A stretch of 64,000 bases of DNA, taken from a virus. Location: positions 1-64,000 of the IMG/VR virus record IMGVR_UViG_3300021478_000002. One strand, given 5' to 3'. The position numbers were made by a program, and so were the translations under genes. The notes beneath the pieces were generated by a model. That model was not told the DNA's origin and made no database searches. It saw nothing but the letters and a program-made list of their open reading frames with translations. Below, piece after piece: positions 12,093-63,796 of this stretch (position 1 is its first letter; each line of letters starts with the position of its first letter).

Positions 12093-12797
12093 ATGTACGG
12101 TGAGCTGTTTCTCATCAAAACGACGCAGGGCGGCGAGATTCCGGCGATCCCCATCGTCATCCAGAACCCGGCCAAGGTCGCGGCGCTGCGTCTCCCGACC
12201 GCCGAGGAGATCAGCGCCTATACCGGCAGCATCCGGCAGGTGATCCACCGGCTGGGCCGCCGCCAGAGCGAAGATCGCGACGTGCCCAACACCGAGGCCG
12301 AGCGCAAGCTCTTCGACGCGATCCGTCTGGACAGAACCGGCGACGAGTTCGACGAAGCGGAGATGCGCCACTCCATCGATCTGGTGTTGCGCCACAACGT
12401 GATCGCCTGTGAGCGCGACGGCGATCAGTACGTGATCAAAGTCAACACCCTCTGGGGCGTTACCTCTCACACCTGCCGTATCCCCACCACGCGCGAACTG
12501 CAGAACTACCGGGAAGGCGTCATCAAGTCGCGCGAGCTGCCCCACAACGTCGAGGAGCGCCGCTTCCCGCCGGAAGCGCCGGTGCAGTTCTATAACGCGA
12601 TCATCACGGCGGTAGAAGGGTACGCGCCGCAGTTCAACGTGCCCATCGGCACCGTCAACGGCAACCGGCATGTGCTCGAAGGCGCGGAGCTGAAGGCGCT
12701 CCTGCCGCAGATCCCGCCGCACCATAAACGCAGCGTGGCGGGCGAAGTCTCCAGCGCACTCTATGATCTCGACCCGCAACTTGACCCAAACGCATAG
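12093..12797 (+). CDS. Tail assembly chaperone, short form (gpG-like)
   Basis: 234 residues. It sits in the G slot between the tail tube and tape measure, the only position where lambda-type phages make two products by frameshift. N-terminal beta hairpin (GELFLIKTTQGGEIPAI), helical middle (AAALRLPTAEEISAYTG in part), mixed C-terminal half. A CCCAAAC slippery site lies 4 bases before the TAG stop and joins it to a downstream frame (separate entries). In lambda, gpG and gpGT coat the tape measure protein during tail assembly and are not in the virion. Confidence 0.7.
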   Translation: MYGELFLIKTTQGGEIPAIPIVIQNPAKVAALRLPTAEEISAYTGSIRQVIHRLGRRQSEDRDVPNTEAERKLFDAIRLDRTGDEFDEAEMRHSIDLVLRHNVIACERDGDQYVIKVNTLWGVTSHTCRIPTTRELQNYREGVIKSRELPHNVEERRFPPEAPVQFYNAIITAVEGYAPQFNVPIGTVNGNRHVLEGAELKALLPQIPPHHKRSVAGEVSSALYDLDPQLDPNA

Positions 12798-13285
12798 AGC
12801 CGGAAGAGTGGCCATACCCGCTACCGCTCCGGCTGCTGATCTACCGGCTGCTGCGCGGCGAGGAGCTGTGCCGTGGCGAGGACCAGGGCGCGAGCGCGTG
12901 CCCGCTGGCCGACACGGTGCGCTGCGTGGCCTGCGGCTATCGCTGGAAGGCCGACGACGTGAACGTGCCCGGCCCGTGCCCTTCCTGCGATCAGAATGCC
13001 TCCGTGGCCGAGCGCTGCGAGAGCTGCCCGGTGGTGGAAGTGGAGCACTACCGTGCGACCACGCCGAGCGGCCAGCTCCTGGACCGCGTGCTGGAACACG
13101 AGTTCGACACGAAGCACTACCGGGTCGATCCCGGCGACGTCAGCGCGGAAGTCAGGGAAGGCTTGAAGGTGCTGGAACACGAGCGAACGCGATGGGAAAA
13201 GGAAACGCGCGAGAAGGCCGACCAGGAGCGCGAGGAGCAGCAGCGGATACGGGAGATGCAGCGGAAGCAGGGGCGAGGGTTCTAG
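12093..13285 (+). CDS. Tail assembly chaperone, -1 frameshift product (gpGT-like) with zinc ribbon
   Basis: Predicted fusion of codons 1-233 of the short form with the -1 frame from 12791 to the TAG at 13283, about 397 residues. The second frame is open from 12785, has no ATG or ribosome site near its start, and is clearly coding: RIEPEEWPYPLPLRLL, then CPLADTVRCVACGYRW and GPCPSCDQ giving CxxC...CxxC (zinc ribbon), and a highly charged helical tail (ERTRWEKETREKADQE). Lambda gpGT works the same way. The zinc ribbon in the T part is an added feature. Not proved without protein data. Confidence 0.7.
12785..12791 (+). promoter_or_regulatory. Programmed -1 ribosomal frameshift site, C CCA AAC
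   Basis: The heptamer CCCAAAC fits X XXY YYZ, and the zero-frame codons are CCA and AAC, as the tandem-slip model requires. It lies 4 bases before the zero-frame TAG and 3 bases after the upstream limit (TGA) of the -1 frame, so the slip falls in a 15-base overlap. Confidence 0.72.
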
Positions 13286-39568: not shown

Positions 39569-39597
39569 TTGACGTGCGCATGTAGTCGTGCAAAACT
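39569..39597 (+). promoter_or_regulatory. Integrase promoter, member of the CATG-box family
   Basis: TTGACG (39569-39574), 17-base spacer beginning TGCGCATGTAGTCGTG, AAAACT (39592-39597). The 13 bases GCATGTAGTCGTG are identical, at the same offset, to the promoter at 47942. ATG 39605 is 8 bases past the -10, so the message has little or no leader. The TTTCACCCC box is absent here. Confidence 0.6.
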
Positions 39598-39604
39598 GGA
39601 ATCC

Positions 39605-41356
39605 ATGATGCAACCAAACGAACTTCCCCCCGAGGTAATTTCCCTTATCAGATTCAGCACCGCCGAGCAGGTCGGCGAAGGCAAGGCCGGGATTGACGGC
39701 CAGCGCCAAGTCAACCAGTCCAGCGCAGCTTACCACGGTCTCAAGATCCGCCGCGAGATGGTGGTCGTGGATGTGTCGGGTAAGCACGTCAAGGACGACC
39801 CGCAGTTCCAGGCACTCTTCAAGGAGCTGGAGGACCCGACGCTCGCCGGTGTGGTCACATCCGAGCAGTCGCGCATCGTGCGTCCCGAGAGCTTTGACGA
39901 TTATCCGATCCTGGGCCACTTCCAGCGCAATAAGAAGTTGATCTATACGCCGACCGGGCGCATCGATCCCAACACGCCGGAAGGCCGCATGGCGCTCACC
40001 GTCGGCGGCATGATGTCGGGCGAGGAGCTGCACAACCTGCGTAGCCGCTTCGCGCGCGGCAAGGCCACCAAACGCCTCGAAGGCAAGCACGTCGGCGGCA
40101 ATCAGATGTTGCCCAAGACCGTGCGCTTCGTGCGCGAGCGCAACGCCGAAGGTGTGAAGACCGGCAAGTCGCACTGGGAGCTGGTACCGCTCGAAGCCGA
40201 GCGCATGAAGCGCGCCTTCCAGTTGCTTCTGGAGGGTCACAGCTACGAGACCATCGCGGAGATGGTCGGTGGCTGGACTGGCAGCGGCCTGCACCGCGCC
40301 TTCATGAACCCGATCCACATCGGCATCCGCCGCTGCGAGTGGACCGTGGGCGCGGAGTATCTGCCGGAGCCGACCGTCAAGAACCCGACGCCGAAAAAGC
40401 GCCGCTATCTGATCAAGCGCGCCGCGCCGCTCGACGTGCCCACGCGCCAGGAGTTGGAGTCGGGCGCGAAGCCGCCGGTCGTGGAGCCGATCATCTCTCT
40501 CGCCGATTGGGATCGCGCGCAGGAGATCATTGCCGCACGCATGAGCCACTGGCGCAAGGGCAAGCTCAAGAACGAAGGCCGCGACCGTGGCGTAGCGACC
40601 GGCATCGCGGACTGCTCCTGCGGCATGCCGCTCTACATGAAGTACGGCTCGCGCGGCTCGCACACCGACGCCTACATCTGCAAGTCGCGTCACCCGAGGG
40701 GCAAGGGCTGCGGCATGAAATCGATCAAGCGCATCGACCTCGACGCGGCCATCGCGCAAACCATAATGATGCTCGCCGACGCCAGCTTCGTGATGTCGGC
40801 GCTGGAGGCCGCGCTGGCGCTACAGGTGGCCGTTCCCGATCCGGCGCGCGTGCAACGCGAACTGGCGCTCGCCAAGCTCGAAAGCGGGCGCAAGGAAATG
40901 ATTGTTATGGTGCGCAAGGGCGAGATGACGCGCGACGAATTCCGCGAGCAGATGGGCGCGCTGGAGATGGAGGTCCGCGCACTCGAAGCTCTAGTCCCGG
41001 CACCGGCACCGAAGGTGGATGCGAGGCAGCTCGTGGAGCTGGTGGTGGCGGTCTTCACTGAGTTCGCCTTCCTGGCGTTCGTTCAACAGCGTGAGGTCTT
41101 GCGCGGAGCCGTGCGCAGCATTATTGTGGATGGGCATGCGAGGGCGATTACGACTGTGACCATCGACGGGGGATACCTGGGACGCGGCGCTAATTCAGTA
41201 CTGCATTCAAGAGCGCAGTACGGAATTAACTCCATTCCCGATCTGACGATTCGGTTCCCCGAACCGTTCATGATTCCAGACACTTACGTGGACCGGCGCA
41301 CAGCCAACGGGCATCACCCCGCGAGCATCGCCAGCCGGTGGGAGTCGGTCCAATGA
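39605..41356 (+). CDS. Large serine recombinase (phage integrase)
   Basis: 583 residues. Resolvase catalytic domain at residues 11-165: SLIRFSTAEQ with Ser18 as nucleophile, DGQRQVNQS, EQSRIVRP, LHNLRSRFARG helix. Recombinase domain at 180-330 (GGNQMLPKTVRFVRERN, GGWTGSGLHRAFMNPIHIG). Zinc ribbon near 340-370 (DCSCGMPLYMKY, CKSRHPRGKGCG). A coiled coil at 400-460 is typical for large serine integrases. It would integrate or excise the phage between short att sites; none was identified. Promoter at 39569 of the leaderless-like family. Confidence 0.92.
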   Translation: MMQPNELPPEVISLIRFSTAEQVGEGKAGIDGQRQVNQSSAAYHGLKIRREMVVVDVSGKHVKDDPQFQALFKELEDPTLAGVVTSEQSRIVRPESFDDYPILGHFQRNKKLIYTPTGRIDPNTPEGRMALTVGGMMSGEELHNLRSRFARGKATKRLEGKHVGGNQMLPKTVRFVRERNAEGVKTGKSHWELVPLEAERMKRAFQLLLEGHSYETIAEMVGGWTGSGLHRAFMNPIHIGIRRCEWTVGAEYLPEPTVKNPTPKKRRYLIKRAAPLDVPTRQELESGAKPPVVEPIISLADWDRAQEIIAARMSHWRKGKLKNEGRDRGVATGIADCSCGMPLYMKYGSRGSHTDAYICKSRHPRGKGCGMKSIKRIDLDAAIAQTIMMLADASFVMSALEAALALQVAVPDPARVQRELALAKLESGRKEMIVMVRKGEMTRDEFREQMGALEMEVRALEALVPAPAPKVDARQLVELVVAVFTEFAFLAFVQQREVLRGAVRSIIVDGHARAITTVTIDGGYLGRGANSVLHSRAQYGINSIPDLTIRFPEPFMIPDTYVDRRTANGHHPASIASRWESVQ

Positions 41357-55303: not shown

Positions 55304-56227
55304 ATGCCACGACTGATCGATGACCTGCGCGCCAAGAGCGCCCGGATCGCGAAGCCGCACTTCGTGCCGCCTGACAAGGTGGACGCATGGCAGGATATGG
55401 CCAAGCGCACGCACGAGACGCTGATGTGGCCGGAGCTGCCGGTGCTGCTCATCGACAACGTGTCCGAGTACTTTTACACGAGCGAGCAAGAGTATTGGGA
55501 TCTGCGCGACGACTTCCCGAATCTGGCTCCGCCCTATCCGGTGTTCTGGGCCGAGTGCAAGATGGCCAAGCGCATCCACAGCAAGCAGTGTGGCGACACC
55601 AACGTGGGCGCTCTCGTGCCGCATGGCCGACTTGGCGCGCTGATTCACGGTCTCAATCCGTCGGAGGTAAACGGCGAGGGCATCCCCGAGAACGTCCGGT
55701 GGATTCTGTGGTGCGAGCTGTTCATCGACTACGGTCGGCGCGGCGTGACGGCGGATGGACCGCATGGTTCCACATTCCTGTGCGTGGATGCCGAGGGCGT
55801 GATCATCGAAAAGCCGTGGATGCAGTCGCTCGCCGACCAGAGCGATGCCGGGATCATGCGCAGCTACATGACGTTCTTCAACCCGGTCTTCCTGGCGATG
55901 AGCTTTCTCCACTGCCGGAACGTCACCATCGTCGAGAACGAGGTGCCCCCGAAGGTCGCGAAGAAGTATCGCGCGCGCACCGGCGTGCAGCCGACCCGCT
56001 ACAAGACTCTGATCATCGAGCCGCTGAAAAAGATCCTGCGCACCGAAGGCCGCAGCGACACGGTCGGCGTGCAGAAGGCGATGCACATCTGCCGGGGCCA
56101 CTTCAAGGACTACCGCGAGGGTCGCGGGCTGTTTGGCAAATATCACCAGCTCGTGTGGCAGCCATCCATCGTGCGCGGCACCAAGGGCAAGAGCGCGCCG
56201 CCGAGGGAGATCGAGGTCAAGCTATGA
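55304..56227 (+). CDS. Conserved phage protein paired with the AcrVA2-like gene
   Basis: 307 residues. No known domain in the first 240 residues; central region LFIDYGRRGVTADGPHGSTFLCVD. The C-terminus has AMHICRGHFKDY (residues 259-270) and LFGKYHQLVWQPSIVRG, a pattern I know from a broad family of phage proteins, often with a 'HICRGH' start. The following gene has a similar motif, so the two C-termini may be related. Role unknown; ATGA overlap with the AcrVA2-like gene, so they are co-translated. Confidence 0.65.
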   Translation: MPRLIDDLRAKSARIAKPHFVPPDKVDAWQDMAKRTHETLMWPELPVLLIDNVSEYFYTSEQEYWDLRDDFPNLAPPYPVFWAECKMAKRIHSKQCGDTNVGALVPHGRLGALIHGLNPSEVNGEGIPENVRWILWCELFIDYGRRGVTADGPHGSTFLCVDAEGVIIEKPWMQSLADQSDAGIMRSYMTFFNPVFLAMSFLHCRNVTIVENEVPPKVAKKYRARTGVQPTRYKTLIIEPLKKILRTEGRSDTVGVQKAMHICRGHFKDYREGRGLFGKYHQLVWQPSIVRGTKGKSAPPREIEVKL

Positions 56228-57300
56228 ATCCATCCATCGAAGAGAAGGTCAGGCGACCGGTAAAATATCTGACCGCAGTATCGCAACGCTATCCCGGCAT
56301 ATGGAGATCAGTGGATCAGTTGCGCGCAAATCGCGACAAGGTGGCGCAACACCACGATTGGCCGACATGGTGCTATTTGCCCCTGCCGGGGGCCGCAGGG
56401 ATTATTACCTCCCCGACCCTCGATGATGGCCAGGAGAATATAGAAGCAGCCTGCGTGGCGACGCTAGCTGGTTGGCGGCTTGCCAAGGACATTTATATTT
56501 TTGATGAGACCGTTCTTGAGGAGTTGTGGAATACGCCCATCGAAGGGAACATCCCTATCGATGTCCTGTATAGGCTGCCTACGTTATGTGCCTACGTGGC
56601 ATTCCCTTCGCCCAGAGACGTAGAAGACGGCAAGCTTCACGGCTTCTTCGTCCACCTGAACTACATCAGAATGCCGATGCTGGTGATCGCCATGGATTTC
56701 GGCACCCTTAATCGCATCTCCTCCGAGTATGTTCCTCTGGCTGTCTTTCCCGTGGAACTGCACGAGGGCGTTGATCTGCTCCAATGCCTGACGATCATGC
56801 ATGAAAAATTGCAGCGGCGGAGAGGCAAGCCACCTGAAGAGATCGAGCGAGTCGTACTGCCGGAAGCAATAAAACGTACGCTGGAACCGCTGGTGAGTCT
56901 TACGATTTATCTCTGTTCGACGTCGGCGGAAATCAGAGCGCGAGACCCGTTGCGCGGCCTAAAGCAGGGCCACTACACCAAGAAGACGAAGAAGGGCGTG
57001 CGCACTTTTGTCCCCGAGCAGCCGCAGGTTTGGGAGGTCGCGTATCGCATCGGGGCCACTTTACGCGCAGCAACCGCTGCCGCCGTATCGCGGAGCACCG
57101 ACAACGGCGGCACGCACGCAAGCCCGCGTCCGCACATGCGCAAGGCGCACTGGCACTCGTTCTGGACGGGTCCGAAGGCTGCTGTCGGCAAGGCTCCGGT
57201 GCCTGCGCGTGAGATTGTTCTCAAATGGATTCCGCCTATTGCCGTCGCGATGGGACCGGATGACGAGACCATTCCAACCGTCCACCGGGTGACGAGGTGA
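56224..57300 (+). CDS. AcrVA2-like protein (candidate type V anti-CRISPR)
   Basis: 358 residues. Residues 78-130 (TLAGWRLAKDIYIFDETVLEE, then PIDVLYRLPTLCAYVAF) and the end RPHMRKAHWHSFWTG (302-316) plus IVLKWIPPIAVAM follow the published AcrVA2 pattern, with its 'GxWRxxxGIYxxD', 'LPxWCVYV' and 'RPHxRRxHWHxxWxG...RW' landmarks as I recall them. AcrVA2 of Moraxella lowers Cas12a by causing loss of its mRNA. Homologs occur in many phages whose hosts lack Cas12a, so the role here is open. Size is close to that of AcrVA2 (about 320 residues), with a 35-residue longer N-terminus. Confidence 0.75.
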   Translation: MNPSIEEKVRRPVKYLTAVSQRYPGIWRSVDQLRANRDKVAQHHDWPTWCYLPLPGAAGIITSPTLDDGQENIEAACVATLAGWRLAKDIYIFDETVLEELWNTPIEGNIPIDVLYRLPTLCAYVAFPSPRDVEDGKLHGFFVHLNYIRMPMLVIAMDFGTLNRISSEYVPLAVFPVELHEGVDLLQCLTIMHEKLQRRRGKPPEEIERVVLPEAIKRTLEPLVSLTIYLCSTSAEIRARDPLRGLKQGHYTKKTKKGVRTFVPEQPQVWEVAYRIGATLRAATAAAVSRSTDNGGTHASPRPHMRKAHWHSFWTGPKAAVGKAPVPAREIVLKWIPPIAVAMGPDDETIPTVHRVTR

Positions 57301-61677: not shown

Positions 61678-62604
61678 ATGACCAACACCAAACGCAACAC
61701 CACGAAGCACACGACCACGAAGCACAGCAAACCCGCGAACTATCGCAATATTCTGCAATTGCAGAATGCGAAAACCACAAAGGGCGAAGCGCTCGGGTAC
61801 ATAACTGGTATCTCGTATCTCGCACCCGCTAACGAATCGGGAGTTATGAATACTTGCCAATTCGCCACAACAGGCCCCGACGGCTGTCTAGATGTATGTA
61901 TCTATAAACAGGGTCGCGGGCGATTCACCAACACCATTAAGGCGCGCATCGCGAAGACAGTCTTTTTGCATGAGCACCGCGAGGACTTCTTAAACAGTTT
62001 GCGTTTTGACATTGAAGCGCTGCGGCTGAAAGCTTCGAAGCTTCGATTCTGCGCAGCATGCGCCACTATCGTGAAGGCGCGCACTAGCAAGGGTCGCGAG
62101 CGCCGCAATTGCCGCAAGTGTGGTAACGCGCTTGTGGCTGTGAAGTTTGCGGTACGTATCAATGGAACATCGGATCTAGCGTGGATACCGATGCAAATGT
62201 CGGCTGAATTCCCCGACGTCGAATTCTATGACTACACGAAGCTTCCGAAACCGTTTTTGCGCACGCGTCCCAACTATGCAATCACTTTCAGCCACACAGG
62301 TTACAACGCGTCCGATTGCATGCAAGCGCTCGCGAATGGTGTAAATGTGGCTGTCGCATTTGCGCTCAAAAAAGGGCAGCCGCTACCCGAGACTTGGAAC
62401 GGGTACAACGTCATAGACGGAGATACTCACGACTTGCGCTTTTTGGACGCGCGCGCGGTCGTGGTGGGTCTCCGTGGCAAGGGTACTTCGTGGAAACAGC
62501 CGACCGCGTTTATGGTAGATCCGAACGCGCAAACGCAAACCTGCATTATGCCAGCACTAATTCAGATCACAGCCGCAGCACAGCCGCAGCAAATCGCAGC
62601 ATAA
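61678..62604 (+). CDS. Conserved phage protein (DUF7227-like) with zinc-ribbon insertion
   Basis: 308 residues. Family landmarks: GYITGISYLAPA, TTGPDGCLDVCIY, GRGRFTNTIKARIAKTVFL, RINGTSDLAWIP, FPDVEFYDYTK, NYAITFSHTGYN, GVNVAVAF, VIDGDTHDLRFLD and VVGLRGKGTS. I know this as a very widespread phage protein of unknown function. Residues 124-152 (FCAACATIVKARTSKGRERRNCRKCG) are an inserted CxxC-CxxC ribbon that most relatives lack. Weak ribosome site. Confidence 0.75.
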   Translation: MTNTKRNTTKHTTTKHSKPANYRNILQLQNAKTTKGEALGYITGISYLAPANESGVMNTCQFATTGPDGCLDVCIYKQGRGRFTNTIKARIAKTVFLHEHREDFLNSLRFDIEALRLKASKLRFCAACATIVKARTSKGRERRNCRKCGNALVAVKFAVRINGTSDLAWIPMQMSAEFPDVEFYDYTKLPKPFLRTRPNYAITFSHTGYNASDCMQALANGVNVAVAFALKKGQPLPETWNGYNVIDGDTHDLRFLDARAVVVGLRGKGTSWKQPTAFMVDPNAQTQTCIMPALIQITAAAQPQQIAA

Positions 62605-62874: not shown

Positions 62875-63062
62875 TGGCACGCGTCATTTGGTCCGCGCGC
62901 TGCAAATCGGGGTATACGTTCAAGGGTCGTATCTGCAATCGCGCCACACCGCGCGGAATGCTCCTATGCTCTGATTGCCTTACAGCCGAACGCATCCCAG
63001 CACAGCCGAAATTAGGCGTATTGCGCGCGCTGCTAGTGGCTGTGCTCGCGATTTGGCGCTAA
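62874..63062 (+). CDS. Small Cys-containing protein
   Basis: 62 residues. SARCKSGYTFKGRICNR...MLLCSDCLTAERI gives four Cys as in a zinc ribbon. The end is hydrophobic (LRALLVAVLAIW), possibly a membrane helix. Confidence 0.55.
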   Translation: MARVIWSARCKSGYTFKGRICNRATPRGMLLCSDCLTAERIPAQPKLGVLRALLVAVLAIWR

Positions 63063-63085
63063 GATGCGCACGGTATCCCGTCTAT

Positions 63086-63796
63086 ATGATGGGTGTCCGT
63101 TTGCACCTTAGACCACAGCCACGCGGGCGACCACAGCCGCAGCACAGCCACGGACAGCCGCAGCCGCAGCCACGCGGGCGACCACCACGGGCGATAGCTC
63201 CACAGCCACGCGGGCGACCCTCACACCACAGCCACGCACAGCCACAGCCACGGGCGACAGCCACGGGCAATAGCTCCACACCACAGCCACGCGGGCGACC
63301 ACAGCCACGCGGGCGACCCTCACACCACAGCCACAGCCACGGACAGCCGCAGCGCGGGCGACCCTCACGCGGGCGACAGCACAGCCACGGACAGCCACGG
63401 GCGATAGCTCCACAGCCGCAGCCGCAGCACAGCCACGGGCGACCACAGCCACGCGGGCGACCCTCACAGCCGCAGCGCGGGCGACAGCCGCAACACAGCC
63501 ACGGACAGCCACGCGGGCGACCACAGCCACGGACACCACAGCCGCAGCGCGGGCGACAGCCACGCGGGCGACCACAGCGCGCGCAAATCACTGAAAAGAC
63601 ACGAAATACCGCGCGTTTACGCGTGCCATGGCGCGTCCGCGCCACTACTCACGCGTGTATTGCTCCTATCGGTAGGCAAGGGGAGAAACCCTACCGCCAT
63701 GAAAACAAAGGGGCGTTAACGTTCTGGCGCGCATCCGCCACGTTACACCGGTGTGGTACTGTGCATTTCACCCCGATAGTACGAAAAACGGGGTAG
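63086..63796 (+). CDS. Low-complexity protein with eight PRGRP (AT-hook-like) cores
   Basis: 236 residues from ATG 63086 or 63089. The first 170 residues repeat QPRGRP (eight PRGRP), QHSHGQP and PQRGRQ; PRGRP is the core of an AT-hook. The last 60 residues are ordinary (KTRNTARLRVPWRVRATTHAC). The repeat DNA is open on both strands and in several frames, so coding is not certain. No ribosome site was seen. Confidence 0.35.
   Translation: MMGVRLHLRPQPRGRPQPQHSHGQPQPQPRGRPPRAIAPQPRGRPSHHSHAQPQPRATATGNSSTPQPRGRPQPRGRPSHHSHSHGQPQRGRPSRGRQHSHGQPRAIAPQPQPQHSHGRPQPRGRPSQPQRGRQPQHSHGQPRGRPQPRTPQPQRGRQPRGRPQRAQITEKTRNTARLRVPWRVRATTHACIAPIGRQGEKPYRHENKGALTFWRASATLHRCGTVHFTPIVRKTG
63106..63590. repeat. 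Long GC-rich low-complexity repeat (CACAGCC / GCGGGCGACC)
   Basis: About 480 bases built from short blocks such as CACAGCCACG, CGGGCGACC and ACGGACAGCC in irregular order. The + strand has almost no T except in CTCCACA and ACCCTCACA units. Not a clean tandem array; no constant spacer. Unusual within this genome. Confidence 0.85.

Follow-up and report, generated by a model that had tools for sequence, protein, structure and literature searches.

The window analysed here, a stretch of 64,000 nucleotides from an IMG/VR virus record, carries two overlapping genes on the plus strand, which we call B and A. Gene B (55304-56227, +) encodes a protein of 307 residues that falls into phrog_20769. Gene A (56224-57300, +) encodes a product of exactly 358 residues, the length given in an earlier note made from the sequence alone, and belongs to phrog_6160. 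The start codon of A lies over the stop codon (TGA) of B in an ATGA overlap (56224-56227, +), which makes coupled translation of the two genes probable. Neither gene matched Pfam or PADLOC, and NCBIfam lacks models for both of them as well as for FinQ and AcrVA2.

The whole record comprises 70,797 bases and is probably complete, since the same protein stretch is present at both ends. The terminase of the phage is less than 40% identical to the best among known phages. The phage had been described as lambda-like, which fits its head genes (lambda-family portal, GpA terminase, S49 protease) but not its integrase, a large serine recombinase with Resolvase and zinc beta ribbon domains (39569-41356). 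The integrase of lambda, unlike that of this phage, is of the tyrosine type. The operon around A is a mosaic of small CxxC proteins whose order varies. The label of a zinc-ribbon operon applies loosely: CxxC pairs are present in several neighbours, of which GP88 (61678-62604) alone scores above a curated Pfam cut-off. A low-complexity, G+C-rich repeat tract with RGRPQPQ-type frames on the plus strand and CG-rich frames on the minus strand (62975-63796) separates the accessory genes from the terminase region.

Both genes recur together in one sister phage (L002; IMGVR_UViG_3300036833_000473), where A is 58% identical and the two genes are adjacent in swapped order. This phage is the only one of about 40 B-carrying records that contains A, and B was found in none of the 49 other A-carrying records, so we rejected the idea that A and B generally occur together. 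Because only two of the phages examined have both genes, a joint function is no more than a possibility. Across the family, no conserved partner gene was found upstream of A. With its sporadic occurrence and mosaic operon, A behaves like an accessory gene. Two B genes follow each other in locus L049 and lie close together in L033, so that doubling inside the superfamily is a recurrent arrangement.

The sister phage also encodes a Cas12m-like protein (L002:10540-12468 and 12474-13111; PDB 23vw Cas12m, E = 4e-83), and beside this gene lie about ten degenerate repeats with an irregular spacing of 47-98 nt that resemble a decayed CRISPR array. A B-carrying phage (that of L037, record G213) has a Cas12m gene 55% identical to it (L271:15-1370), together with an apparently intact array of 19 near-identical 36-nt repeats and spacers of 35-39 nt. 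A comparison of these spacers with the window phage and all fetched loci gave no convincing match.

Gene A within the AcrVA2 and FinQ family

Searching all PDB chains with the product of A by phmmer retrieved AcrVA2 (7ci1; E = 3.5e-9), and both landmarks from which the earlier note had recognised the likeness recur in this alignment: IYIFDE...LPTLCAYV of A is aligned with IYQLDE...LPDWCVYV of AcrVA2, and RPHMRKAHWHSFWTG with RPHIRRGHWHGYWQG. In a PHROG search, phrog_6160 matched residues 15-343 of A (4.9e-39), and the sole PDB match of a 55-row profile of the A family was again AcrVA2 (4.6e-43). The earlier note had proposed a structural comparison with AcrVA2, and this agreed well with the sequence searches: an AlphaFold2 model of A (pLDDT 90.6) gave three significant Foldseek matches, every one of them AcrVA2 (best E = 2e-16, 7ci2), and aligned with 7ci2 over 285 residues in VIA-align (Z = 24.0). 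The scores against phrog_6160, of the family profile and of the predicted structure place the similarity far beyond chance, and the term AcrVA2-like thus holds for both homology and fold. Judged by sequence and model, A adds one more member to an established family. Its gene is under purifying selection, as indicated by a dN of 0.14 and a dS of 0.42 relative to L104 (dN/dS ≈ 0.33).

The same family contains FinQ, a protein of IncI1 plasmids. FinQ matched AcrVA2 in phmmer (E = 3.8e-17) and phrog_6160 (8.3e-48), and A aligned with FinQ in BLASTP over 308 columns at 24% identity (5e-18). From these sequence comparisons we firmly assign FinQ, AcrVA2 and A to one protein family. FinQ has in common with A a homologous region of about 300 residues and the most conserved of the C-terminal residues; it differs in being plasmid-borne, in its long tree branch and in its known effect on F tra transcripts. 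Within the literature library searched, we found no paper naming both FinQ and AcrVA2.

AcrVA2 of Moraxella (7ci1, 7ci2) and A share their fold, the W84, IY and LPxW motifs and the H-x-R-[RK]-x-H-W-H...G...W C-terminus, but the two proteins are only ~19% identical, and the N-terminal WPxWC motif of A is missing in AcrVA2. In a quick maximum-likelihood tree, A falls into a clade of 118 rows (support 99), whereas AcrVA2, Mcat5 and Shewanella Y11 form a separate clade with a support of 100. The AcrVA2 clade (AcrVA2 branch length 2.4) and FinQ both lie outside the clade of A on long branches. Given this identity and the different, well-supported clades, we discarded A as an orthologue of AcrVA2.

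Family members were detected by tblastn in phages of Moraxella, Shewanella, Leptospira, Lactobacillus, Pasteurella, Erwinia and Dickeya. They also occur on 631 plasmids, 569 of which are predicted to be conjugative, and among the matches listed, most of those on enterobacterial plasmids are annotated as FinQ. FinQ-like genes have already been noted in phages, since gp231 of Erwinia phage Special G was deposited under the name 'putative protein FinQ'. This protein and those of three other jumbo phages (Dickeya JA13_060, Erwinia Yoloswag gp241 and RisingSun gp126) match the A profile with E-values of 5e-29 to 3e-42, but unlike A they are very diverged and come from phages of 230-310 kb. A published search of UniRef30 with the AcrVA2 fold returned 342 matches, of which those with descriptions were all uncharacterised and one contained two AcrVA2-like domains (PMC12230656).

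Individual loci showed further features. On the Thioflavicoccus plasmid pTHIMO01 (L015:1-4014), a family member sits directly downstream of the BREX genes PglZ and BrxL, separated from them by a single small gene. Its other flank is occupied by a gene for a reverse transcriptase, which makes this a defence-island setting. In L231:4001-5035 and L144:2977-4046, the A-family genes are broken into two adjacent or overlapping frames and may represent decayed copies or sequencing errors.

Across 155 family sequences, conservation peaks in a C-terminal module of A (residues 300-342; 57121-57249, +), with a mean of 0.47 compared to 0.27-0.41 elsewhere. This module, which we infer to be the effector part, carries the signature H304-x-R306-K307-x-H309-W310-H311 (57133-57156, +). 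H304, R306, H309, W310, H311, G316 and W335 are kept in 98-100% of the sequences. A conforms to the family pattern H-x-R-[RK]-x-H-W-H...G...W as HMRKAHWH, with K replacing the usual R at position 307. The equivalent residues are intact in FinQ and in AcrVA2 (H286, R288, H291, W292, H293, G298 and W309, numbered as in the sequence used). Further upstream, the motif W84-R85...Y91...D94 (56473-56505, +) combines a Trp that is invariant among the 155 sequences with a following K-x-IY-x-F-D. A constant C-terminal module next to a more variable body would suit a shared effector with different targets.

Gene B as a probable remote second branch

The relation of the upstream gene B to A was missed in the earlier note. 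B matches phrog_20769 (4.5e-18), and direct BLASTP between A and B gave no signal. Its predicted structure (pLDDT 89.3) had no Foldseek match in the PDB under 1e-3, yet its two best matches in VIA are AcrVA2 entries (Z = 6.3 and 6.2, each over ~170 residues), followed by an unrelated entry at Z = 3.5. In a viral structure library, the model matched proteins of Dickeya phage JA13 and the Erwinia phages Yoloswag and RisingSun (E = 2.9e-3 to 4.7e-2). The corresponding genes, whose products have the same lengths as the three matched proteins (347, 341 and 333 residues), belong to the A family by sequence. The jumbo-phage members thus bridge A and B, as they match the A profile and three of them match B structurally.

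Profile-profile comparison pointed in the same direction. An enriched comparison of A and B spanned 112 columns and aligned the C-terminal signature together with the helix that precedes the C-terminus (E = 5.9e-4), with a score of 33.6 against 14.6 ± 2.7 for shuffled profiles, none of 150 reaching it. This link is clear only with the jumbo-phage members and more rows added; thinner profiles gave weak results (E = 0.03, and E = 0.02 with 3 of 200 shuffles equally good). The corresponding signature of B, H261-I-C-R264-G-H266-F267 (56084-56104, +), is invariant or nearly invariant in an alignment of 53 sequences. The pattern H..[RK].H[WFY] occurs near the C-terminus in 173 of 176 A proteins, 85 of 88 B proteins and none of 902 unrelated open reading frames, counts that overstate its universality because many loci were fetched by patterns containing part of the signature. 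Members found by pattern-free tblastn also carry it, for example AcrVA2, FinQ and the B relatives in four actinobacterial phages. Taken together, sequence profiles and the model make it very probable that B is a remote offshoot of the AcrVA2/FinQ superfamily. Beyond the membership of A, our analysis thus adds the link to FinQ and, with the coupled gene B, a superfamily branch that had been unannotated.

In related phages, B is common, with about 30 close relatives that are 45-79% identical. Other phrog_20769 proteins, such as Gordonia phage BritBrat gp54 and Mycobacterium phage Mutaforma13 gp50, share with B the sequence family and the C-terminal H-x-x-R-G-H-F; unlike in the window, an A gene was not seen in their fetched flanks.

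A candidate cassette for mRNA knockdown

The only two family members with known phenotypes, AcrVA2 and FinQ, both reduce the mRNA of their targets. For AcrVA2, our sources are a review and a meeting report covering preprint-level work. AcrVA2 is described as reading the nascent N-terminus and causing translation-dependent loss of cas12a mRNA, the first example documented in a prokaryote in which nascent-peptide reading leads to mRNA loss (PMC13131331). Meeting reports of 2025 extend the effect to other tagged nucleases (PMC12908700). Within the family, this mode of action is known for AcrVA2 only. FinQ is known from the literature to inhibit F-plasmid transfer by lowering the transcripts of the tra operon. 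Because FinQ belongs to the family, lowering of transcripts appears as a common trait, with Cas12a as one target among others.

We see slightly better than even odds that B and A constitute a paired, translation-coupled cassette that knocks down the mRNAs of rival genes and is not specifically directed at Cas12a. Such a cassette would consist of two distant superfamily members. The body of each protein would bind one specific nascent peptide emerging from the ribosome, in the manner of AcrVA2, and the C-terminal His/Arg module (H-x-R-[RK]-x-H-W-H ... G ... W-x-P-P) would then cause loss of the translated mRNA. The peptide read would differ by member, being Cas12a for AcrVA2 and F-plasmid Tra proteins for FinQ, while the target proteins of A and B would most likely belong to a rival phage, to a plasmid or to a defence system of the host. 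This proposal builds on the observed homology and fold, the shared signature, the overlap of the two genes, purifying selection, the distribution over phages and plasmids and independence from Cas12a; by analogy with AcrVA2, it assigns to A and B a mechanism, an effector part and targets that we infer.

Among the alternatives, A and B may be FinQ-like exclusion factors, directed at the genes with which competing plasmids or integrative elements transfer or express themselves. Membership of FinQ in the family and the large share of predicted conjugative plasmids among the plasmid matches speak for this, but blocking conjugation would profit a phage less than a plasmid. We regard it as unlikely, and more as a choice of target inside the knockdown proposal than as a separate mechanism.

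It is likewise improbable that family members bind their completed target protein after translation, or target RNA polymerase and terminate transcription, with the mRNA effects of AcrVA2 and FinQ being secondary. In favour of this reading, structure 7ci2 contains AcrVA2 bound to an internal Cas12a peptide, 618-634 (PMC13131331). FinQ has moreover been described as a transcription terminator: PMC8744291, citing Ham and Skurray 1989, states that tra-operon transcription is stopped at several sites in a Rho-independent manner, and the 1989 work read this as termination, not as mRNA decay. Against it, the effect of AcrVA2 is tied to translation and to the N-terminal residues that the mRNA encodes (PMC13131331).

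The earlier note had presented A as a candidate anti-CRISPR. A true anti-Cas12a role, in a host with type V-A CRISPR whose Cas12a would be lowered as by AcrVA2, could draw on the family homology and fold and on the reported activity of AcrVA2 against several Cas12a orthologues (PMC13131331). The low identity, the separate clade and the long AcrVA2 branch argue against it, as does the absence of any further recognised acr gene near A. In addition, a search with TIGR04330 found Cas12a in none of 50 bacterial genomes from many phyla that contain family members. In a control set of 151 genomes, all from one family, the same search detected Cas12a in 12. Cas12a is rare. The result is therefore no proof of avoidance, as chance would give the same, but it does indicate that the family does not require Cas12a. 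The anti-CRISPR designation is thus not upheld, and we consider this role of A quite improbable. The earlier interpretation is thus supported in part; its better half is the suggestion of a possible wider, translation-linked lowering of other mRNAs, which has independent backing from FinQ.

We give equally little credence to A and B being core-biology proteins of the phage, for example regulators of its own mRNAs, with no role against rivals: the abundance of B in this phage group and the location of B-family genes near antirepressor genes in Gordonia and Mycobacterium phages would fit, but A is sporadic, as is typical of accessory genes.

Implications for mobile genetic elements

Returning to the paired knockdown cassette, a broader and more tentative version of it, to which we assign somewhat less than even odds, would unite AcrVA2, FinQ and the A and B families in a single large superfamily that has been overlooked. 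Its members would destroy mRNAs under the guidance of nascent peptides and serve phages and plasmids in attacking one another as well as the defences of their hosts. FinQ would then act by the AcrVA2 mechanism and not by transcription termination, and A and B would be a coupled pair with two targets or a heterodimer.

The second superfamily branch, represented by B, occurs in mycobacteriophages and other phages, and the conserved residues identified here provide named candidates for mutation. If FinQ works like AcrVA2, the classical system of E. coli K-12 and the F plasmid can serve to dissect the mechanism, which would then be an old and general weapon among mobile elements and no CRISPR curiosity. 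Our analysis suggests that the family may switch off chosen rival genes at the mRNA level, with CRISPR as one target only.
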